Shown: piece after piece, positions 2,778-44,131 of the stretch
Numbering within the stretch: the first letter of the stretch is position 1
Layout of the letters: the number at the start of each line of letters is the position of its first letter
IMG/VR virus record: IMGVR_UViG_3300045947_000230
Coordinates: 1 to 44,131 of that record
Source of the DNA: a virus
Length of the DNA: 44,131 nt
Strand: one strand, 5' to 3'
The notes under the pieces: generated by a model
Seen by the model: the letters and a program-made list of their open reading frames with translations, nothing else
Databases searched by the model: none
What the model was told of the DNA's origin: nothing
Made by a program: the position numbers and the translations under genes

Positions 2778-3374
2778 ATGACAACTTCCATAGTTGATAT
2801 CTCCGACCCCAATTTCATCCCGCATCGTGACGTTGAGCGCGTCTGGGCTGGCCACAAGCGTCACTACGACACGGGGACCGCAGAGCCGTATGACCGTACC
2901 CGTGCGCTCAAGCAGTTCGAGAGCGACGGCATGTCGGCGAGCGAGAGCACCTTGAATCGTGCGATCACCCGCTACGGCCGTAACGGCACGATCATCCCGG
3001 GGCTGATCCCACATTGGCCGATCGGCAAATACGAAGAGCGGCCATGGATCGTGGCGCAGCGCGAGCGGCGGCAGCGTGAAGCGCTCCAGCGCGTCCCCGT
3101 CGATCAGCCCGAAACCGTCACGCTCGAGGTGGTCAACCACTTCATCGATGGTCTTGCGGCAACCGAGCCCACGGACCAGCACTTGCGCGACGTCAAGGCT
3201 GACGTGCTCGAGCTGTTTCGCATGGTCAAGAAGAACGCGAGCGACGTCAACAACATGGCGGCCGTGTTTGTCGGCGGGTTTGTGCTGCTCGACGTGTTCA
3301 GCGATGGCCGGCTCGACAACATCGTGCGCTGGTGCAAGCTGCTCGCGGCGACCCGCCACGTCATCATTGCCTGA
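2778..3374 (+). CDS. Hypothetical early protein (198 aa)
   Basis: Not recognised. It is the first gene of the early plus-strand operon, starting at ATG 2778. Residues about 20-75 (YDRTRALKQFESDG, then SESTLNRAITRYGRNG) read like a helical DNA-binding segment. The middle is charged and Arg-rich (VAQRERRQREALQ), and the C-terminal third has a hydrophobic segment (NMAAVFVGGFVLLDVF) that may be a buried helix or a membrane segment. First position after the control region suggests an early regulatory or host-takeover role, by context only. Confidence 0.65.
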   Translation: MTTSIVDISDPNFIPHRDVERVWAGHKRHYDTGTAEPYDRTRALKQFESDGMSASESTLNRAITRYGRNGTIIPGLIPHWPIGKYEERPWIVAQRERRQREALQRVPVDQPETVTLEVVNHFIDGLAATEPTDQHLRDVKADVLELFRMVKKNASDVNNMAAVFVGGFVLLDVFSDGRLDNIVRWCKLLAATRHVIIA

Positions 3375-3423
3375 CTAGAACTGACGATGCCGTTGGCGAA
3401 CGGTGGGCCAAACAATCAGGCCC

Positions 3424-3642
3424 ATGCCCACCGTTCGTCTTGCTCCACTCACGGAGTATGACCTTGGTCCCGCTGGGTTCGACATGCTGTTCGCGCTGGC
3501 GCGAAAGCGGCGGCGCCCACCACGGGAACAGGTCTATCACCTCTTTCTGTATGCCCTCGACAGAGCGATCGCCGGCGAAGACGTCGAGCTGAGCCAGGAG
3601 CGTCTCGAAGCGCTCACCGGCCCCCACGAACTGGTCGCGTAG
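3424..3642 (+). CDS. Hypothetical small protein (72 aa)
   Basis: Not recognised. The likely start is ATG 3424 (MPTVRLAPL); an in-frame start lies seven codons upstream but has no better ribosome site. The middle is basic (ARKRRRPPREQ) followed by an amphipathic helix (VYHLFLYALDRAI), which would suit a small ribbon-helix-helix-like or helical binding protein. It is followed by the next gene after 2 nt. Confidence 0.55.
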   Translation: MPTVRLAPLTEYDLGPAGFDMLFALARKRRRPPREQVYHLFLYALDRAIAGEDVELSQERLEALTGPHELVA

Positions 3643-3644
3643 CC

Positions 3645-3788
3645 ATGCCTGAGCCTACCCCGGGCGAAGCCGTGCCCGAAGCAGAAGAAGAACCCTGCAG
3701 CTGTCACTGCCACCAACCGACGTGGTGTCCCGAGTGCGACGACCCGGTCGGCGAGTTGCCGCCGCCCAAGAAGAAGGAGAACGCATGA
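3645..3788 (+). CDS. Tiny Cys-rich protein (47 aa)
   Basis: The core has CSCHCHQPTWCPECDDP, six Cys/His ligands in 17 residues, typical of a zinc knuckle or ribbon. The N-terminus is acidic and Pro/Glu-rich and the C-terminus ends in a KKKEN cluster. ATG 3645 follows the upstream stop by 2 nt and its own TGA (3786-3788) overlaps the next ATG (3785) as ATGA. Position and coupling support real translation. Function is unknown. Confidence 0.65.
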   Translation: MPEPTPGEAVPEAEEEPCSCHCHQPTWCPECDDPVGELPPPKKKENA

Positions 3789-3973
3789 CCGAAGAGATCA
3801 CCGCATCGCCGCCCGCGTGGGAAGAATGGGTGAGCCACCCCAACCGGCGCCGCTTCGTACCCACTGGCGACCATCCCATGATGGCTGGCCAGCAAGGCTG
3901 GTGGGCGCTGCCGGGCACGTACACCGAAGGCCGCGTGCTCGAGATGGGCTTCAAGCCTGAGAAGCCGCGCTAG
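3785..3973 (+). CDS. Hypothetical small protein (62 aa)
   Basis: Not recognised. The start at ATG 3785 is set by the ATGA overlap with the upstream gene; the open frame extends further upstream, but that part is a shadow of the Cys-rich gene. The protein is rich in Trp and Pro (AWEEWV, GQQGWWALPGTY), suggesting a small compact beta fold. It ends one base before the next ATG. Confidence 0.6.
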   Translation: MTEEITASPPAWEEWVSHPNRRRFVPTGDHPMMAGQQGWWALPGTYTEGRVLEMGFKPEKPR

Positions 3974-4468
3974 ATGGCGCGCTTTGCCGTGAGCCTCGTC
4001 TTCGGCGCCATCGTCGGCCACGCGTCGCCAGCGTTCGCGGCACCCGATCCGGACGCCGTTCGCGAAGCTGCGCTCGCCGCGAAGGTCGCCGAGCACAACC
4101 TGTGGGATGCGCTGCTGACGGTCGGCGAGGATGACCCGAAGACGTACCTGTACCACACGGGCGAGCTCGAACGTCCGCTGCCGATCGTGGTCGGTCCCCC
4201 GTATGGCGCTGCTGTCGCTCGAGCCCGATGCATCATCGGCAAGGAATCCGGCGGGCTGGATGTCCCCAACCGCCAGGGCAGCGGCGCGACCGGCCCGGGG
4301 CAGTACTTCCCGTCGACGTGGGCGCGCCACACGGCGCTGTACAGGAGCGCCACGGGCTACGGCGGACCGCTGAGCCTGCACAGCCTGGATCACGTCACGG
4401 CCGTGATGTCGTGGATCCTGGGGGCCATTCCGTCGACCCGCCGCGAATGGACGGTGAGCGGCTGTTGA
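3974..4468 (+). CDS. Secreted lytic transglycosylase-like protein (164 aa)
   Basis: Probably cleaves the glycan strands of peptidoglycan outside the cytoplasm. Residues 1-22 form a signal peptide with an AFA cleavage site. The catalytic region has CIIGKESGGLDVPNRQGSG followed by GATGPGQYFPSTW, the SLT/lysozyme-like pattern, with Glu91 as the likely acid. It sits in the early operon far from the holin genes, which is unusual for an endolysin; a role in entry, superinfection exclusion or lysis are alternatives. A small membrane protein gene overlaps its 3' end. Confidence 0.72.
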   Translation: MARFAVSLVFGAIVGHASPAFAAPDPDAVREAALAAKVAEHNLWDALLTVGEDDPKTYLYHTGELERPLPIVVGPPYGAAVARARCIIGKESGGLDVPNRQGSGATGPGQYFPSTWARHTALYRSATGYGGPLSLHSLDHVTAVMSWILGAIPSTRREWTVSGC

Positions 4469-4602
4469 ACGACTACCGGGGCACGGACCTCGAGCCGCAC
4501 GACGTGCTGATGCTGCTGGTCGTGCTGGGCCTGGTTGCGAGCGGGGCAATCGGGCTGGTGTGGCTGGCCGTGTGGCTGGTCCTTCGATTTGTTCGACCGT
4601 GA
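4447..4602 (+). CDS. Small single-span membrane protein (51 aa)
   Basis: Starts at ATG 4447 inside the end of the transglycosylase gene (22-nt overlap); TTG 4465 is an alternative. A charged N-terminus (RGTDLEPHD) is followed by one long hydrophobic helix (VLMLLVVLGLVASGAIGLVW, continuing) and a basic end (LRFVRP). Its size and its location after a cell-wall hydrolase suggest a holin- or spanin-like partner, but no family is recognised. Confidence 0.6.
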   Translation: MDGERLLNDYRGTDLEPHDVLMLLVVLGLVASGAIGLVWLAVWLVLRFVRP

Positions 4603-4647
4603 ACAGTGGCGTGCGCGGCGCCTTGTACCGCGAGGGCTAATGATCCC

Positions 4648-5169
4648 ATGCCGCAACCACCAGATTCGTCATCGTTTGCACCCGACATCGACGTCGACGA
4701 CAACAAGAAGTACATCGCGCAGCTCGTGGCCATGGACGAGGGTCCGTCGCAGTATCGCGACAAGCGCAAGGACGCCATGATGGACACCTACAAGTTCCAT
4801 CTGTGGGATCCCGAGACGGGCATCGGCGTGATCGACAACAACACGGGCGAGATGTTCGAGTTGTGGAAAATTACGAATGACCTGACCTACGACAACCCGC
4901 AGAGCGGCAAGATCGCGCCCGGGCGCGAGATCGCCAACGCGCTCGTCGGTCATCGGCTCACGGACGAGGAAGTGAGCCAGATGCTGGCGTCAGGCTGGGA
5001 GAAGTCGCTCAAGGGCAAGCGTGCGATGGCCGACGTCGAGTGGGTCGAGAAGCCCGACGGCACCCAGCGGCTGAGCCTGCTGCGGCTCCGCCCGTACACG
5101 AAGAAGCAGAAGACCGCACCGCCGCCACCACCAGCCGATGACGATGATGACGACGGCCTCCCGTTCTGA
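4648..5169 (+). CDS. Single-stranded DNA-binding protein-like (173 aa)
   Basis: The C-terminus ends in a run of Asp followed by GLPF (DDDDDDGLPF), the hallmark acidic tip by which SSB proteins recruit replication partners. The body (about 30-145) is beta-rich and contains FHLWDPETGIGVI and MADVEWVEKPDG, compatible with an OB fold, though not a close match to bacterial Ssb. I chose ATG 4648 (MPQPPDSS); the open frame extends 14 codons upstream without a better ribosome site. It lies upstream of primase and nuclease genes, which supports a replication or recombination role. Confidence 0.65.
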   Translation: MPQPPDSSSFAPDIDVDDNKKYIAQLVAMDEGPSQYRDKRKDAMMDTYKFHLWDPETGIGVIDNNTGEMFELWKITNDLTYDNPQSGKIAPGREIANALVGHRLTDEEVSQMLASGWEKSLKGKRAMADVEWVEKPDGTQRLSLLRLRPYTKKQKTAPPPPPADDDDDDGLPF

Positions 5170-5386
5170 GCTGCACCTGGCTACCTCAGCGCGGCGCATG
5201 CTGTCGATTCGGCGCGCTTTGGGCATGACGCAGCGTGATTGGGCGTACTACCTGGACGTCGCGGTCAACACAGTGTCGATGTGGGAAACCGGCCGACGGG
5301 CACCCAGCCATCTTGCCGAGGCGCGCATCCGAGAGGTTGCCGCTTCGCAGGGGCTGGATCTGCACACGATGCGGAGATTCGAATGA
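5138..5386 (+). CDS. XRE-family HTH protein (up to 82 aa)
   Basis: A DNA-binding protein with a clear Cro/C1 helix-turn-helix: IRRALGMTQRDWAYYLDVAV, then NTVSMWETGRRAPS. It may start at ATG 5138/5144/5147, overlapping the SSB-like gene, or at ATG 5198 (MLSIRRALG). Its TGA overlaps the ATG of the vWA gene (ATGA). It is probably a transcriptional regulator of early genes; the target is unknown. Confidence 0.78.
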   Translation: MTMMTTASRSELHLATSARRMLSIRRALGMTQRDWAYYLDVAVNTVSMWETGRRAPSHLAEARIREVAASQGLDLHTMRRFE

Positions 5387-6060
5387 GCGAGCAGGCACCG
5401 GTCCTTCACTCGCTCGACTGGATCCTGCTGCTGGTCGACCGCAGCTACAGCATGGTGGACATCTTGAACCCCACCGTGCGCGGCATGGAGCGCTTCGTCC
5501 AGCAGCAGCAGACGCAGCCGCACACCAACCTGAGCGTGGTCGCGTTCGGCACTGATGACTGGGGCAGCCTGCAGCTGCAGACGCTGCTCGACACCACGAT
5601 TGCCGACCCGCACCGTACCGCAATCCTGCCCAGCATGTATGTGCCGGATGGCGACACGCCGCTGCTGGCCGCGGTGTGGGAGTCGATCAGCCGTCTCGAG
5701 CAGAAGCAGCGCAAACGTGACCGCGTGCTGCTGGCGATCATGACTGACGGGATCGAGAACGCCAGCGGCTCGCGCTACAGCATCGAGAAGGTACGCGCGC
5801 GCATCAAACAGAAGATCGCGCAGGGTTGGCAGATCGTGTATCTGGGCGCGGAGATCGACGCCTGGAAGAGCGGCGACCACTACGGCGTGGGCAAGCTGAA
5901 TGCGCTGTCCTGGTCGCCGACGGAAGCAGGCGTCGAGGGCATGTTCCAGACGCTGGCGGACTCCACCACGCGCTGGTCGAAATCCAAGGCGCTGACGGCG
6001 GGCAAGCAGCCCGAGCGCTTCTTCCCGCTACAGCTACCACCACCGAAGGGAAGTCGATGA
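5383..6060 (+). CDS. von Willebrand factor A domain protein (225 aa)
   Basis: A metal-binding vWA fold. The MIDAS residues are visible: D19-x-S21-x-S23 (VDRSYSM), a DGDTPL loop near 88-93, and MTDGIEN near 119-126. Intracellular vWA proteins act as protein-protein interaction platforms, often with AAA+ ATPases, but no MoxR-type ATPase is encoded here. The start ATG 5383 is fixed by an ATGA overlap with the HTH gene; the frame extends upstream only as a shadow. A ribbon-helix-helix gene follows with another ATGA overlap. The phage role is unknown. Confidence 0.8.
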   Translation: MSEQAPVLHSLDWILLLVDRSYSMVDILNPTVRGMERFVQQQQTQPHTNLSVVAFGTDDWGSLQLQTLLDTTIADPHRTAILPSMYVPDGDTPLLAAVWESISRLEQKQRKRDRVLLAIMTDGIENASGSRYSIEKVRARIKQKIAQGWQIVYLGAEIDAWKSGDHYGVGKLNALSWSPTEAGVEGMFQTLADSTTRWSKSKALTAGKQPERFFPLQLPPPKGSR

Positions 6061-6263
6061 GAACGTCGATCTATTTGCCTGACGACCTGCATGAATCGGC
6101 GCGCCGCATGCGGATCAACATCTCTGCCGTCTCCGAGCGAGCTGTGCGGGATGCGATCGTCAACAGACAGCAGGAGCTCGAGGCAACCATCAAGGCAGGC
6201 GAAGAAGCGCGTGTGCTGCTACAGCAGCTAACCGAAGAGAACGAGGTGCCCGCGACCCAGTGA
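6057..6263 (+). CDS. Ribbon-helix-helix protein (68 aa)
   Basis: The N-terminus RTSIYLPDDLHESARRM is a typical RHH/CopG strand-helix, followed by INISAVSERAVRDAI, the second helix. The C-terminal half is a Glu/Gln-rich helix. Such proteins bind DNA as dimers and often serve as antitoxins or repressors. No toxin gene is recognised beside it, so an antitoxin role is not supported. The start overlaps the vWA stop (ATGA), and its stop overlaps the next GTG start (GTGA). Confidence 0.75.
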   Translation: MRTSIYLPDDLHESARRMRINISAVSERAVRDAIVNRQQELEATIKAGEEARVLLQQLTEENEVPATQ

Positions 6264-6673
6264 GCCCGCGTCGCAGTCCCAGGCCCACTGCGACGCAACC
6301 ACCGCTGACGGGACAGCAGTTCCGCCGCCTGATGGACGGCTCCCTTACTGAGGCGCAGTGGCAGAAGTCAGTCGAGCAAGCGCTCACCGTGTTCGGGTGG
6401 TGGTGGATGCACATCCCACCCAACGTGGTGGTGTGCCCCAACTGCCACACCAAGCTGTACCGCGGCATCGCACGCGGCTTTCCCGACATCCTGGCCATCA
6501 AGCCGCCGCACATCCTGTGGATCGAGCTCAAACGCGAACGTGGGCAGCTCGAGCCAGAGCAGACCACCGTTGGCCAGATGCTGCAAGCCTGCGGCCAGAC
6601 GTGGCTGCACGCCCGACCGCGGGATCGCGAGCGATTGATGGGCCTGATCGCTCACCCGGAGGACGGACCGTGA
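6260..6673 (+). CDS. VRR-NUC domain nuclease (137 aa)
   Basis: A PD-(D/E)XK endonuclease of the VRR-NUC type, often encoded next to phage helicases and thought to cut branched DNA. The catalytic segment reads GFPDILAIKPPHILWIELKR: Asp near 75, and Glu and Lys of IELK near 90-92. An unusual CPNCHTK pair lies just before the active-site Asp, which may bind zinc. It starts at GTG 6260 with a GTGA overlap. The gene sits two genes upstream of the primase-helicase. Confidence 0.82.
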   Translation: MSPRRSPRPTATQPPLTGQQFRRLMDGSLTEAQWQKSVEQALTVFGWWWMHIPPNVVVCPNCHTKLYRGIARGFPDILAIKPPHILWIELKRERGQLEPEQTTVGQMLQACGQTWLHARPRDRERLMGLIAHPEDGP

Positions 6674-6894
6674 TGACGCTGCAATGTGCTGACCTGCAAT
6701 GCCGATGCAACGCAGTGCAGTGCGACTGGTGCGAGAACGAAGCCAACTACTCGATCAACTGGGTATGCGGCCATGCATCGGCCATGTGCCAAGTGTGCTT
6801 CGACCCTGTTAGCGACGAGCAGGGGGCGCGGTACTGGTCAATGGACATCATGGATTGGGGCGACTATCCGATCTGCCCGGACTGCGCCGGCTGA
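6673..6894 (+). CDS. Cys-rich zinc-binding protein (73 aa)
   Basis: Many CxxC-type pairs are visible: CADLQCRC, CDWCENEA, VCGHASAMCQVCFDP and YPICPDC, enough for two to three zinc sites. The CGHASAMC part resembles a treble-clef or B-box-like knuckle. It starts at ATG 6673 overlapping the nuclease stop (TGATG) and ends 3 nt before the primase gene. A role at the replication machinery is inferred from position only. Confidence 0.7.
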   Translation: MTLQCADLQCRCNAVQCDWCENEANYSINWVCGHASAMCQVCFDPVSDEQGARYWSMDIMDWGDYPICPDCAG

Positions 6895-6897
6895 ACC

Positions 6898-9156
6898 ATG
6901 ACGTCGAGTGCGTCGACGTGGGTCATGGGCAGCCTGGTCGACTATGCCGTCAGGTATCTGGCGCGCGGCATGTCGATCATTGCCGTGTGCGGCACGCTGC
7001 GGCACCAGCACCGCACACCGTCGGGCCAGATGGTGTGGTGTACCGATCCGGGCAAGGTGCCGCTGGTGGCGTGGAAGCGCTATCAGAACGCGCTGCCCAC
7101 CGAAGCTGACGTGCGCCGCTGGTGGCGGCGCGAGCCGGACGCGAACATCGCGCTGGTCACCGGCCGCTTGAGCAAGGTCGTGGTGCTCGACCTGGACGGG
7201 CACATTGCCATCCGCGCCGCCCAGATGATGGGCTACGACAACGGACCCCACGCCTATACCGGTCGGGTGGGCGGCATGCACCGCTTCTTTGCGTATCGCG
7301 ATGACGAGCCGCACAACTTCGCCCAGAAGCAGAACGGCATCGATTACCGCGGCGAGGGCGGCTATGTCGTATTGCCGCCCAGCCGCCACGTGTTGGGCCG
7401 CAGCTATGCCTGGGGCGAGGAGCTCGTGGACCTCGATGACTTGCCCGAGCTGCCGGGCTGGGTCAACGACCTGGCCAGGACGCCGACGGCGACGGCTTCG
7501 AGTGCTCGAGGCGGCGGGCCGATCACCGAGCCCGGACGCAACGACACGCTGGCGCGCATTGGCGGCGGCATGCGCTACCAGGGTGCCGAAGAGGACGAGA
7601 TCCTCGAGGCGTTGCGGCAGGTCAATGCCGAGCGCTGCGAGCCGCCGCTGGACGATGACGAGGTCCGCAAGATCGCGCATAGCGTGGCGCGCTACGAGCC
7701 TGAACCTGAAGACACGCCGCGGGTCCGATTAAATGGCACGGCAGCTGTCGAGGAGGAGGCTGAGCCAGAGGATCCGTTGCCGTCGGTGCCCACCTTCCCG
7801 GCTGAGGCGTTGCCGAGCGTGATGCAGCGGCTGATCGAGGACTCGTCGCTGCCGGCGGCGTTGCTGGCGGGCGGCTACCTGGCGAGCAGCGCAATCGCGA
7901 CCGGCGGCAACGTCGAGGCGTACTACGAGCAGTTCTTTGTCGAGCGGCTCAACCTGTTCGTCGCGCTGGTGGGCAAGCCGGGGTCGGGCAAGAGCGAGTC
8001 GCAGAAGCAGCCGCTGCGGCCGGTCCAGCGCTGGGATGCCGAGCGCTTTGCCGAGTACCGTGCCGAACGCGAGCGCTGGCTGAACCGCACCAACGAGCAG
8101 AAGAAGCTGGACAAGGAAAACGGGGTACGCGAGCCGAAAGACCCGCGCATCCTGGTCGGGTCGGCGACCATCGAGGCGACCGAGCACCGTTTCATGGCGC
8201 AGCCGTCGCTGGGCATCTACCGCGACGAGCTGGTCGGCTTTCTCAAGCAGGTCAACGGCCGCTATCGGCAGAAGGGCGATGACGACACCGACTGGGTGCT
8301 CGAACGCTGGGACGGAGCACCCATCCTGACCGATCGGCGCGGCGTGGGTGGTCCCAGTGGCCAGAACGGGATCCTGATCTTTGTCGAGCGGCCGACGCTC
8401 ACGATCCTGGGCAGCATCCAGCCGGCGCGGCAGCGCTACCTGGGCGTGGATACCGAAGGTGGTCGCTCGAGGTGGTCGCTGTTCATGGTCGAGGGCACCA
8501 CCCAGACGGTGATGCAGAACCCGAACGTGACCGATGTCGAGATCTACGAGCGCACCATCACGCGGCTGCTGACGTGGCGGCAGAGCAAACGCCGATGGCT
8601 GATCACCGCGGCCGTCAAGCGACGCCTGGACGAGTTGGGTGAAGAGTGGGCGACTCGTGCGCGGAGCGGCGAGGCGTCGCCCACCACCCTGGCGGCACTG
8701 ATGAAGGCAACGCGGCAGGTTGTGCGGTTCGCTGTCGCGTTAGCGGAGTTCGAGCGGGCACAGTTTGCGGCCGACCAGCCGGACGTCGACCAGACGTTGA
8801 GTGTCGAGCTGCTCGACCGAGCAGCACAGATCGTCAACTACAACGTCGCGGTCTGGGATGTGATCGGCGACGGGACGCCGTTCGCGCGAACGTCGGCACT
8901 GGCGCACCTAGACGAGCCCATCAACCACATCCTGCAGTACCTCGAGCACGTGGGTGGTGGGCCGATCCGGACGCGGCAGCTCTGCCAGTACCGCGTCGGC
9001 GGCATCAGCTCGCGGAAGGATCTCGACCCGGTCCTGGCGCGGTACGTGGAGCGGTTCCCGGGCACGGTCGAGGACGGCTCGAGCGGTCCGGCAGGTGGTC
9101 GACCGTCCCAAACGATCCGTCTGCCGCTGCGACAAAACCGTCGACAGAACCCATGA
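6898..9156 (+). CDS. Bifunctional primase-polymerase / DUF3987-type helicase (752 aa)
   Basis: The main replication protein. The N-terminal Prim-Pol domain (about 15-200) contains VVVLDLDGH (catalytic Asp pair near 96-101), a GGMHRFF strand and PPSRH. A PriCT-like helical segment follows (GRNDTLARIGGGMRY and later DDDEVRKIAHSVARYEP, to about 265). The C-terminal half is a P-loop ATPase with GKPGSGKS at about 359-366, matching DUF3987 phage helicase-like proteins. Priming plus unwinding would start replication. The iteron array lies directly downstream (9157-9305), a common origin position. No phage DNA polymerase is seen, so host polymerase is probably recruited. Confidence 0.88.
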   Translation: MTSSASTWVMGSLVDYAVRYLARGMSIIAVCGTLRHQHRTPSGQMVWCTDPGKVPLVAWKRYQNALPTEADVRRWWRREPDANIALVTGRLSKVVVLDLDGHIAIRAAQMMGYDNGPHAYTGRVGGMHRFFAYRDDEPHNFAQKQNGIDYRGEGGYVVLPPSRHVLGRSYAWGEELVDLDDLPELPGWVNDLARTPTATASSARGGGPITEPGRNDTLARIGGGMRYQGAEEDEILEALRQVNAERCEPPLDDDEVRKIAHSVARYEPEPEDTPRVRLNGTAAVEEEAEPEDPLPSVPTFPAEALPSVMQRLIEDSSLPAALLAGGYLASSAIATGGNVEAYYEQFFVERLNLFVALVGKPGSGKSESQKQPLRPVQRWDAERFAEYRAERERWLNRTNEQKKLDKENGVREPKDPRILVGSATIEATEHRFMAQPSLGIYRDELVGFLKQVNGRYRQKGDDDTDWVLERWDGAPILTDRRGVGGPSGQNGILIFVERPTLTILGSIQPARQRYLGVDTEGGRSRWSLFMVEGTTQTVMQNPNVTDVEIYERTITRLLTWRQSKRRWLITAAVKRRLDELGEEWATRARSGEASPTTLAALMKATRQVVRFAVALAEFERAQFAADQPDVDQTLSVELLDRAAQIVNYNVAVWDVIGDGTPFARTSALAHLDEPINHILQYLEHVGGGPIRTRQLCQYRVGGISSRKDLDPVLARYVERFPGTVEDGSSGPAGGRPSQTIRLPLRQNRRQNP

Positions 9157-9305
9157 GGGGGTTTTGTCGACAGGGTTTTGTCGACGGGCGAGGGTTTTGT
9201 CGACAGGGTTATTGAGTATGGCTCAAGTTCAAAATTGGCAAAAATCGAAGGTCCCAACGCTCGGGGGGGTTTTGTCGATCGACAAAACCTCCTGGGTCCC
9301 CGGCG
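9157..9305. other. Candidate replication origin: iterons plus AT-rich tract
   Basis: A repeated GGTTTTGTCGAC motif is packed between the helicase and the next gene. Direct copies start at 9160, 9174 and 9193. A perfect 22-nt palindrome built of two inverted copies lies at 9268-9289, and an inverted partial copy (GACAAAACC, 9131-9139) lies at the end of the helicase gene. Between the direct copies and the palindrome is a stretch (9209-9250) with long A/T runs, unlike the GC-rich surroundings. Iterons plus an easily melted tract beside the replication gene fit an origin; an operator array is the alternative. Confidence 0.6.
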
Positions 9306-9494
9306 ATGCCTGAAAAGAGTGCAGCTCTGTGTCGGCACTGGGGCTGTCGGCAGCGGTGGACGTGGCGTATCCGCGCCTATCGCGGGAACCGTCGAGCCTG
9401 GGGCGACAAGGTGTGCGAGGTGCATGTGGAGCGCTACCAAACGTGGGTGTCTCCCGAGTTGAGGCTGGAGATTAAAGCGAGGATTGAAGACTGA
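9306..9494 (+). CDS. Small zinc-finger protein (62 aa)
   Basis: The protein has CRHWGC near the N-terminus and KVCEVHVERY later, giving a possible four-ligand zinc site (CxxxxC...CxxH). The middle is basic and Trp-rich (RQRWTWRIRAYRGNRRAW), suggesting nucleic-acid contact. It starts at ATG 9306, just downstream of the iterons, and its TGA overlaps the next ATG (9494). Function is unknown. Confidence 0.65.
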   Translation: MPEKSAALCRHWGCRQRWTWRIRAYRGNRRAWGDKVCEVHVERYQTWVSPELRLEIKARIED

Positions 9495-10036
9495 TGTCTG
9501 GCTGGGCGACGTGCAGGAGCTGCCATCAGCGCATCTGGTGGGGCAAGGCACCCTTCGACAACACCCGCAACTGGCCGTTCGACGACCAGGACGAGCAGAC
9601 CCAGCACTTCGATACGTGCAGCGCCATTCAGCGCGTGGTGGACTTCGCCGGCAACGTCCACCGCGTTGCCAAGTGCCGCGCGTGCGGCGAGCCTGTCTGG
9701 TGGGACACGACGTGGAAGGGGCGGCGACGCCCGATGAACGTCATGCCCAACGGTGACGCCAGCGACGAATGCCACTTCGACACCTGCGCCGGGCAGTCGG
9801 TGGGTGCGGCACCTGAGCCCGAGCCCGTGGCAGCCGAGCCGGTCGGCATCTACGACATCGACCAGTGGCTGGCGCAACTGGGACTGCGGCGACCGGTCAC
9901 GCTCGAGGAGATCACGTCGGCGTTCCGTGGCCTGGCGATGCAGCACCACCCGGACATGGGCGGCAACGCGTCCGACTTCATACGCGTCAAGCTGGCGTTC
10001 GATCGCTGCAAAGAACTGATGGGTGCCGCGGCGTGA
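9494..10036 (+). CDS. Double zinc-ribbon protein with C-terminal J domain (180 aa)
   Basis: Two zinc ribbons are followed by a DnaJ-like domain. Ribbon 1 has ATCRSCHQ with HFDTC (about residues 7-42). Ribbon 2 has AKCRACGEP with CHFDTC (about 61-98). After an Ala/Pro/Glu linker, the J domain (about 125-178) carries LRGLAMQHHPD-like sequence (FRGLAMQHHPDMGGNASDF) with the HPD motif near 152-155 that triggers Hsp70 ATPase. Phage J-domain proteins can recruit host DnaK, for example to remodel replication complexes, which suits its place by the putative origin. This order (ribbons first, J last) is not that of DnaJ itself. Confidence 0.8.
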   Translation: MSGWATCRSCHQRIWWGKAPFDNTRNWPFDDQDEQTQHFDTCSAIQRVVDFAGNVHRVAKCRACGEPVWWDTTWKGRRRPMNVMPNGDASDECHFDTCAGQSVGAAPEPEPVAAEPVGIYDIDQWLAQLGLRRPVTLEEITSAFRGLAMQHHPDMGGNASDFIRVKLAFDRCKELMGAAA

Positions 10037-10810: not shown

Positions 10811-11440
10811 GTGGTATCGGGTCCGTCGAAGATCCGTAGCCAGGATCCGGGCTACTGCTTCAAGATGGCCGGCTTCGAGCTCGATCCGAGCTTCGTCTCG
10901 AGGCGTTTTGATTCGGTTGCGCTGTCCGTGAAGTATCTGCCGCTACTGATCTATATCGGGACGATCTTCGCGGCCAACTGGGCCATTGTGACGTTCGGAC
11001 CGGTGCCCGTGGGGTTGGGGCTGATGGCGCCCGCGGGCGTGTACTTCGCCGGGCTGGCGTTCACGTTCCGCGACCTGACCCAGGATCAGCTCGGCCGACG
11101 CTGGACCTACGGTGCCATCCTGGTCGGGGCTGTGTTCTCAGGCTTTCTCAGCGGGCCGCTGGCACTCGCGTCCGGCGTCGCGTTCCTGTTTTCGGAGACA
11201 GCCGACCTGCTGGTCTACAGCCCGCTCAGAGAACGCCGCTGGTTGCTGGCTGTCGCAGCATCGAATCTGGTCGGGCTCACGCTCGACTCGGTGCTGTTCC
11301 TGTACCTGGCGTTCGGATCGCTCGAGTTCTTGCCCGGACAGATCGTGGGCAAGCTGACGACGACGGCGATCGCCATCGTCATTCTGTGGTGGGGGAGGCG
11401 TGCAGTTCTGGCTCGGGATTCATCAAGTCGCGTGGCTTGA
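10811..11440 (+). CDS. VUT/YhhQ-family queuosine-precursor transporter (209 aa)
   Basis: An integral membrane protein matching the VUT family; E. coli YhhQ of this family imports 7-deazaguanine precursors (preQ0/preQ1). Visible signatures are YLPLLIYIGTIFAANWAIV, GLTFRD-like (LAFTFRDLTQDQLGRRWTY) and FSETADLLVYSPL, with about five to six hydrophobic spans. The N-terminal 20 residues (SKIRSQDPGYCFKMAGF) are foreign to the family and resemble part of the phage protein at 42978-43460, so the true start may be ATG 10865 or GTG 10928. Its 3' end overlaps the DpdA-like gene, supporting joint expression and a role in supplying base precursor for DNA modification. Confidence 0.85.
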   Translation: MVSGPSKIRSQDPGYCFKMAGFELDPSFVSRRFDSVALSVKYLPLLIYIGTIFAANWAIVTFGPVPVGLGLMAPAGVYFAGLAFTFRDLTQDQLGRRWTYGAILVGAVFSGFLSGPLALASGVAFLFSETADLLVYSPLRERRWLLAVAASNLVGLTLDSVLFLYLAFGSLEFLPGQIVGKLTTTAIAIVILWWGRRAVLARDSSSRVA

Positions 11441-12158
11441 GCAGCTCAGCATCCCCACCATGGTCAGCTACCGTCGGCTGAAACGGCGCCGCGGCTTCCC
11501 ACGCGCGCTCGGCGACTGGGTGCAGGACTCGGGCGGCTTTACTGAGCTGAGCCTGCACGGCGCGTATCAGACGACGCCCAAGACGTATGTGGCGCACACG
11601 CGGCGACACGCAGCTGAGATGGGGCGGCTGCAGTGGGCAGCTGTCCAGGACTGGATGTGCGAGGACGTCGTCCTGGCCAAGACCGGCTCGACGGTGGCGC
11701 AGCATCAGCTACGCACGGTCGAGTCGTACCTCGAGTTGCAGCAGTTGGCGCCCGAGTTGCCGTGGCTACCGGTGCTGCAGGGACAGGTGCTCGACGACTA
11801 TCGACGGCACGTCGACCTGTACACCGCGGCGGGTGTCGACTTGCGGGCAGCACCACTCGTGGGATTGGGGACGGTGTGCCGGCGGCAACAGACCATGGTG
11901 GCGGTACGGCTGATTCAGGGGCTGGCGTCATTGGGATTACGCCTGCACGGGTTCGGCTTAAAAGTAACGAGCCTGCTGCGGACCAGAGAGTATCTGGCTT
12001 CAGCAGACTCGATGTCGTGGAGCACGGACGGGCGCTACCCGGAAGGTGGACGCTGCCAGCGCGTGCGTGACCACTCGAACTGTGCGAACTGCCTCGACTA
12101 CGCGCTGCTGTGGCGGCAGCGCTTAGTCGATCGGCTGCAGCAGGGGATGTTGTTCTGA
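11400..12158 (+). CDS. dpdA: DpdA-like deazaguanine DNA transglycosylase (252 aa)
   Basis: Resembles phage DpdA, a relative of tRNA-guanine transglycosylase that replaces guanine in DNA with a 7-deazaguanine. Visible features: D43-SGGF (base-pocket motif), QDWMCED near 83-89, VLQGQ near 125-129, GLGTVCRRQ near 155-163, and ADSMSW, where Asp203 is the likely nucleophile. A C-terminal zinc site is formed by Cys219, His225, Cys228 and Cys231. It is short, as in phage versions, and lacks tRNA-specific domains. It starts at GTG 11400, overlapping the transporter by 41 nt. Older annotation would call it queuine tRNA-ribosyltransferase. Confidence 0.82.
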   Translation: MQFWLGIHQVAWLEQLSIPTMVSYRRLKRRRGFPRALGDWVQDSGGFTELSLHGAYQTTPKTYVAHTRRHAAEMGRLQWAAVQDWMCEDVVLAKTGSTVAQHQLRTVESYLELQQLAPELPWLPVLQGQVLDDYRRHVDLYTAAGVDLRAAPLVGLGTVCRRQQTMVAVRLIQGLASLGLRLHGFGLKVTSLLRTREYLASADSMSWSTDGRYPEGGRCQRVRDHSNCANCLDYALLWRQRLVDRLQQGMLF

Positions 12159-43717: not shown

Positions 43718-43792
43718 TCACTTCATAGTGCAGGCTACTGCCAGCCATAGTGCCAACATGTAGCCGATTGCGAATGCAAGAAGGATTTCCAT
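43718..43792 (-). CDS. Possible 24-residue membrane peptide
   Basis: ATG 43792 opens MEILLAFAIGYMLALWLAVA, followed by CTMK, a single hydrophobic helix. It lies just upstream of the helical gene and has no strong Shine-Dalgarno. Tiny membrane peptides are common in phage genomes, but support here is only composition and position. Confidence 0.38.
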   Translation of the reverse strand: MEILLAFAIGYMLALWLAVACTMK

Positions 43793-44004
43793 CGAGGTAG
43801 AACTATCGGCACATAGATCTATCAAGCATCGTTCTGTATAGTCAGTGCTGGACACGAACGAGCGCCACGGGTTGCCGTGGAGATTGTTGGATGGAGATCA
43901 GCGCGATCCATGCCTTGGCGATGACGCTACTCATGGGACTGCAGTAGCCGAGCGGAGGTAGCTCAACCAGCCCATATCGCCTGTGCCCACTTTGCTAGAC
44001 ATAT
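43793..44004. other. Intergenic region across the circular junction
   Basis: No convincing gene. It contains ATAGATCTAT (43813-43822), echoed by GTAGATCTAC at 44011-44020 (7-16), and a perfect CCACGG-GTTG-CCGTGG hairpin (43865-43880). On the minus strand a TATACA box (43845-43840) could be a -10. Two very short overlapping frames (MSSKVGTGDMGW and MSSVIAKAWIALIS) are present but unsupported. It separates the zinc-finger genes at 13-469 from the downstream minus-strand genes. Confidence 0.4.
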
Positions 44005-44131
44005 CCACAAGTAGATCTACCTAACGTCGGCTGGGCCACGGATGCAGTCGTGGCGGCGCACCGGGTAGAGCTCGTCGTGCGTCTTACAGAAGAAGGCGCG
44101 GCACAGTGGGCACCACGTCTCGATAGCTGCT

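Follow-up and report, generated by a model that had tools for sequence, protein, structure and literature searches.

A repeat array overlapping the 3′ end of a Prim-Pol–DUF3987 gene is a probable replication origin of an uncultured phage

What is the function of the cluster of short repeats found at the 3′ end of the primase-helicase gene in this viral DNA? The window, which is the whole 44,131-nt virus record IMGVR_UViG_3300045947_000230, carries an exact 127-bp terminal repeat (positions 1–127 are the same as positions 44005–44131) and therefore the genome is probably complete and was assembled as a circle. Its genes include those for both terminase subunits (small and large), a major head protein, and tail proteins, as well as one for an integrase (positions 720–2120) that is similar to DNA invertases. 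This set of genes indicates that the genome belongs to a whole tailed phage that is probably temperate. A preliminary description of the sequence proposed that the repeats form a probable replication origin, and the comparative evidence given below (a close relative, a survey of Prim-Pol loci, covariation with a winged-helix domain, and the phage Sfi21 precedent) strongly supports this proposal.

Seven units of GGTTTTGTCGA(C) are present within 162 bp (positions 9128–9289): two inverted, three direct, and one palindromic pair. The two inverted units, on the minus strand, lie within the last codons of the gene at positions 6898–9156. Unit 1 (9128–9139) has two mismatches, and unit 2 (9140–9151), which reads GGTTCTGTCGAC and was reported also as GTCGACAGAACC, has one. 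An inverted unit had been recognized here previously, but it was placed at 9131 and the second one was missed. The three direct units that had been listed at 9160, 9174, and 9193 are all exact copies of GGTTTTGTCGAC on the plus strand (units 3, 4, and 5 at 9160–9171, 9174–9185, and 9193–9204). Likewise, the palindrome noted at 9268–9289, GGTTTTGTCGATCGACAAAACC, is perfect over 22 bp and comprises units 6 (plus strand) and 7 (minus strand). The A/T-rich stretch said to separate the units proves to be the lowest-GC 46-bp segment of the genome (9200–9245; 37% GC versus ∼64% for the genome), and it is a putative melting element. The layout, with five units followed by the GC minimum and then the palindromic pair, is that of PICI/Sfi21-type origins, as is the location directly 3′ of an initiator gene. 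The array was originally thought to begin after the primase-helicase gene. The two are indeed adjacent, but the gene ends inside the array, which overlaps the stop codon at 9154–9156 and reaches to the next ORF.

This clustering is far beyond what is expected by chance. When up to two mismatches are allowed, the unit has 12 matches in the window versus 2.4 expected (maximum of 6 in 100 shuffles), and 7 of the 12 fall within the 162 bp. The best 10-mer of the region is present in seven copies, whereas 300 dinucleotide shuffles averaged 2.1 copies and never gave more than 3. Nowhere else in the 44 kb of the window does a 9-mer reach four copies within 200 bp. A search for more copies of the motif, as advised in the preliminary description, added only the unit at 9140–9151, and no unit with zero or one mismatch was found elsewhere in the window. 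An Rfam search and a DNA-level search among annotated phages each gave no match, and among viral contigs the exact palindrome is present only in L004/L006, the contig that matches the window. A terminator-like match at 9140–9171 was rejected, as it is merely one inverted and one direct unit pairing. Near the genome end is a second A/T minimum (43785–43844; 40% GC over 60 bp), where no repeats of the unit are present.

The gene at positions 6898–9156 (plus strand) encodes a 752-aa putative initiator with Prim-Pol, PriCT_1, and DUF3987 domains (Pfam E-values of 9e-29, 4e-15, and 2e-30). A helicase function has been predicted for DUF3987, and origin recognition has been suggested for the C-terminal winged helix of such PrimQH proteins (PMC5862659). 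A similar domain is predicted at residues ∼667–745 of the window protein (8896–9132, plus strand), where it is the likely iteron binder. An AF2 model of the last 112 residues has the H-H-H-beta-wing-beta arrangement of a winged helix with a core pLDDT of ∼83, which corresponds to moderate confidence; the full-length model, with a mean pLDDT of 53, was used for the C terminus only. Structure searches with the C terminus returned almost exclusively winged helices, with weak E-values, and the absence of the P4 origin-binding domain from the matches listed says nothing either way. A C-terminal DNA-binding winged helix, as in PICI/Sfi21-type initiators, is thus predicted from the model. Neighboring zinc-finger proteins, which had also been considered as binders, are less likely candidates than this domain.

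Viral-contig searches identified one primase that is identical to that of the window (L004) and another, from L005, that is 80% identical. The L005 locus has seven sites in the same order as in the window, although its outermost inverted site is degenerate (three mismatches). The unit offsets are 0/12/31/46/65/151/161 in L005 versus 0/12/32/46/65/140/150 in the window. However, the L005 unit is CCTTCTGTCAC(A) where the window has GGTTTTGTCGA, and the counterpart of the window palindrome is CCCTTCTGTCACGTGACAGAAGGG. Both loci retain a TTnTGTC core within the unit and GAGTTCAAA/CAAAAA-type elements within the A/T tract. Since the layout is preserved and the unit differs in all copies, the copies have changed in concert and the sites evolve together. 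Such a pattern would be expected if a single sequence-specific protein reads all of the copies. The two initiators are 89% identical in DUF3987 and 72% identical in the winged-helix region. Within the winged helix, H3 is 93% identical, the turn/H2 segment is 65% identical, and the wing, at 54%, is the most changed. The high identity of H3 means that this helix alone does not explain the change in the unit. The gene that comes directly after the array in L005 is DnaJ-like. Directly 3′ of the array in the window is a 62-aa ORF (9306–9494) with no obvious counterpart in L005, which appears to be a recent insertion or a spurious ORF.

Prim-Pol loci were drawn from viral contigs and from bacterial and archaeal genome contigs, and each was scored by the most repeated 10-mer (up to one mismatch, both strands) in a 400-bp segment located at the 3′ end of the Prim-Pol ORF, with at least five units counted as an array. 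Arrays were found at 17 of 56 Prim-Pol 3′ ends in a first set versus 17 of 1037 control windows from the same contigs (Fisher 1e-14). A second set, gathered later, gave arrays at 34 of 73 Prim-Pol genes versus 19 of 1178 controls. After deduplication, 52 of 124 loci are positive at a control rate of 1.8%, including 22 of 40 in the DUF3987 class. Under the strictest control, which is restricted to intergenic gaps of at least 120 bp, an array is present in 28 of 42 post-Prim-Pol gaps versus 5 of 229 others (p = 9e-23), a rate ∼30 times that of other gaps. One of the five positive control gaps (L025) holds an array displaced by one gene.

The unit differs among most elements (e.g., CCGCTACACC, AATTATGGAC, ACTTTCGCG, TTGTCCCGC, and ACCTATTGCG), and both unit orientations are usually present. 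The A/T minimum of the array ranks in the lowest tenth of its locus in 81% of the loci with arrays (median rank 0). Cultured strains that share this layout include Metarhizobium album NS-104 (L066) and Tsuneonella litorea YG55 (L057). The scoring script recovers both crr and ori1 of P4, and it gives the Sfi21 origin three units with the strict 10-mer and five with a 9-mer. The low score of Sfi21 by the strict 10-mer indicates that the survey undercounts origins with short units. Arrays beside Prim-Pol genes are not universal, since none was found right after the gene in nine cultured or annotated phages that were checked (Kurnik, H188, CRP-810, Sucellus, H40/1, C7, Bobby, McProf, and MetMV) or in BIP-1, the latter being consistent with a published account (PMC4234260). 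Among these, the primase of Vibrio phage H188 aligns over nearly the full length of a DUF3987-type query. Genes for VWA-like, Prim-Pol, and DnaJ-like proteins are grouped at positions 5239–10036 of the window and likewise at 3158–7902 of uncultured phage MW202444 (L007), whose primase is 27% identical to that of the window and whose locus lacks the array.

If the initiator reads the units through its winged helix, then the two should vary together. Among 25 array-bearing loci of the DUF3987 class, similarity of the units is correlated with similarity of the winged helices (r = 0.53). A partial Mantel test in which the similarity of Prim-Pol plus DUF3987 is controlled still shows this relation (r = 0.27, p = 2e-4), although tests of this type are lenient on related sequences and the covariation is therefore supporting rather than decisive evidence. 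The converse test, of unit against Prim-Pol plus DUF3987 similarity with the winged helix controlled, is not significant (r = 0.08, p = 0.17). These comparisons support the view that the unit follows the winged helix, and not the primase or the helicase.

The array at 9128–9289 is very probably the replication origin of this phage, or the essential part of it that its own initiator would bind through the winged helix. This reading draws on the seven units surrounding the GC minimum of the genome, on the architecture that was kept while the unit changed in concert in L005, on the family-wide linkage of arrays to Prim-Pol genes and their coincidence with the A/T minimum, on the covariation of the unit with the winged helix, and on characterized precedents that share the position (Sfi21 ori, PICI ori, P4 crr, Cch2 iterons, and pRN1). 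By analogy with such systems, a theta origin beside its own initiator gene is the best-supported type. The Prim-Pol/PriCT-1/DUF3987 product would bind the seven units through its C-terminal winged helix, and initiator oligomers built on both sides would melt the A/T-richest tract between the unit sets. The DUF3987 ATPase could then load at the melted tract as a helicase, and initial priming would fall to the Prim-Pol domain, with polymerases of the host or the phage taking over from there.

Some observations count against an origin at this site. The GC-skew analysis that had been suggested as a check does yield a detrended minimum, but this is at 6.6 kb and not at 9.2 kb (the maximum is at 18.6 kb), and skew proved uninformative as an origin marker. 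The phages named above that lack an array also weigh against the origin, as does, by analogy, the fact that crr of P4 is not the start point of replication.

The closest precedent in layout is the origin of Streptococcus thermophilus phage Sfi21, a 302-bp noncoding “phage inhibitory” element (Foley et al. 1998, as cited in PMC6356513). It has been described as an independent origin that infection activates, and as a resistance decoy whose effect depends on copy number (PMC6356513). In the Sfi21 record, the annotated 302-bp origin overlaps the last codons of a Prim-Pol/PriCT_1/D5-type primase gene, and direct GTTAC-type units are followed by an extremely A/T-rich tract and then by inverted units. 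The window therefore resembles Sfi21 in its Prim-Pol plus PriCT_1 initiator, in an array lying over the last codons of the primase-helicase gene, and in its similar layout. In contrast, Sfi21 has a D5/DUF5906-type helicase rather than DUF3987, a coding region split into two CDSs, an unrelated unit sequence, and a much more A/T-rich origin.

In PICIs, the origin directly follows the 3′ end of the initiator gene and invariably has two sets of iterons around an A/T-rich melting region, an organization that in 2018 was considered unmatched among other known bacterial replicons (PMC6092414). For SaPI Rep and for Cch2, C-terminal domains bind iterons directly downstream from their own genes (PMC7581432; for SaPI replication origins, see Ubeda et al. 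2007, as cited therein). The window shares with these elements the position of the array immediately 3′ of the initiator gene and the two unit sets around an A/T-rich region; its predicted winged helix would correspond to the iteron-binding C-terminal domain of Rep. However, PICIs are satellites without their own full virion genes, whereas the window encodes terminase, major head, and tail proteins and so represents a whole phage, and its initiator is of the Prim-Pol–DUF3987 type. The array has a Sfi21/PICI-type layout, and the element that carries it is neither a PICI nor a relative of P4.

Phage P4 encodes a bacterial-type (Toprim) primase in its alpha protein, whereas Pfam assigns archaeo-eukaryotic Prim-Pol, PriCT_1, and DUF3987 domains to the window protein. 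The crr element of P4 begins 46 bp after the alpha gene and, like the array, places iterons of either orientation close behind the 3′ end of a primase-helicase gene. The alpha protein binds its origin through a C-terminal winged-helix domain (PMC4234260). P4 differs from the window in having two separate cis regions, ori1 and crr, which are 4.5 kb apart and carry the same repeats; of the two, it is crr that follows the alpha gene directly on its 3′ side. By this precedent, the array could be an auxiliary site that is bound by the initiator and needed in cis, with strand opening at a second site elsewhere. We consider this unlikely, given that the probably complete genome has no second cluster of the unit and that its GC minimum falls inside the array.

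Somewhat less likely still is an operator or stoperator array for transcription control that is bound by a phage repressor or by an autoregulating initiator. Direct and dyad sites in an intergenic gap would suit such a function, as would the integrase of a probably temperate phage, and autoregulation by the initiator itself, which the preliminary description raised, is also possible. Yet a scan of the region gave no sigma-70-type promoter match, and the array sits at the 3′ end of its gene and not in front of it. Stoperator systems, as in cluster A mycobacteriophages, have many single sites spread over the genome, whereas here there are no units with one mismatch or fewer outside 9128–9289. 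Across many phages and elements, moreover, it is the Prim-Pol gene with which arrays are associated.

The origin of pRN1 also lies 3′ of a Prim-Pol gene encoding a C-terminal winged helix, and it is a 100-nt stem-loop (PMC4234260). It resembles the array in this position and in a sequence that diverges rapidly between close relatives, but differs in having no iterons. That the window initiator similarly reads a large single-stranded stem-loop instead of linear sites is possible in principle but improbable: the array region folds much better than shuffles (z of −5.5, and −3.7 for L005), but inverted units force good folding anyway, the predicted base pairing takes a different form in L005 than in the window, and the direct units also changed in concert, with the unit following the winged helix.

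If the array is indeed the origin, then the predicted start of replication of an uncultured temperate phage is placed to within ∼160 bp, and its likely binder is named. The best reading is that this kind of origin is already known and the window is a further case. Two results extend past those already described: the layout is more general, in that the survey found it beside Prim-Pol genes in viral, bacterial, and archaeal contigs, well outside PICIs, and unit and reader diverge in concert between close relatives. A tentative hypothesis, which we regard as possible but not probable, is that a single origin architecture is common to Prim-Pol phages and mobile elements, and that within it the unit and its winged-helix “reader” diversify as matched pairs, even when the relatives are close. 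Recognition of the origin would then act as a compatibility type that evolves fast, driven perhaps by decoys of the origin, by satellites, or by relatives infecting the same cell, much as the Sfi21 origin provides phage resistance as a decoy. Matched pairs of repeats and reader domains could serve as orthogonal plasmid origins and as anti-phage decoys.

Several minor features were noted in the window and the surveyed loci. At positions 10811–12155, the window encodes a Vut_1-family protein (putative vitamin uptake transporter) and then DpdA (deoxypurine in DNA, E-value of 2e-69). This phage may put 7-deazaguanines into its own DNA, and the G residues of the units could be modified in this way. 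Contig L010 carries a Prim-Pol/RepA-like helicase gene with a 28-bp perfect palindrome, CAGAGTGGACACGCGCGTGTCCACTCTG, ∼2.2 kb upstream (1717–1744) and GGACA-type repeats downstream (5740–5880), which perhaps make up a split (P4-like) origin. Six copies of AGGGGAGTA are located at 3790–3912 of L042 in the gap upstream of a Prim-Pol/DUF3987 gene, which is the other side of the gene. The different contigs L025 (6871–7058) and L026 (7164–7352) have the unit GCGGAAGTA in common, in arrays separated from the end of the Prim-Pol gene by ∼750 and 1030 bp and by an intervening gene. Similarly, L012 (4122–4334) and L127, again different contigs, both have the unit CCGCTACACC right after the Prim-Pol gene.
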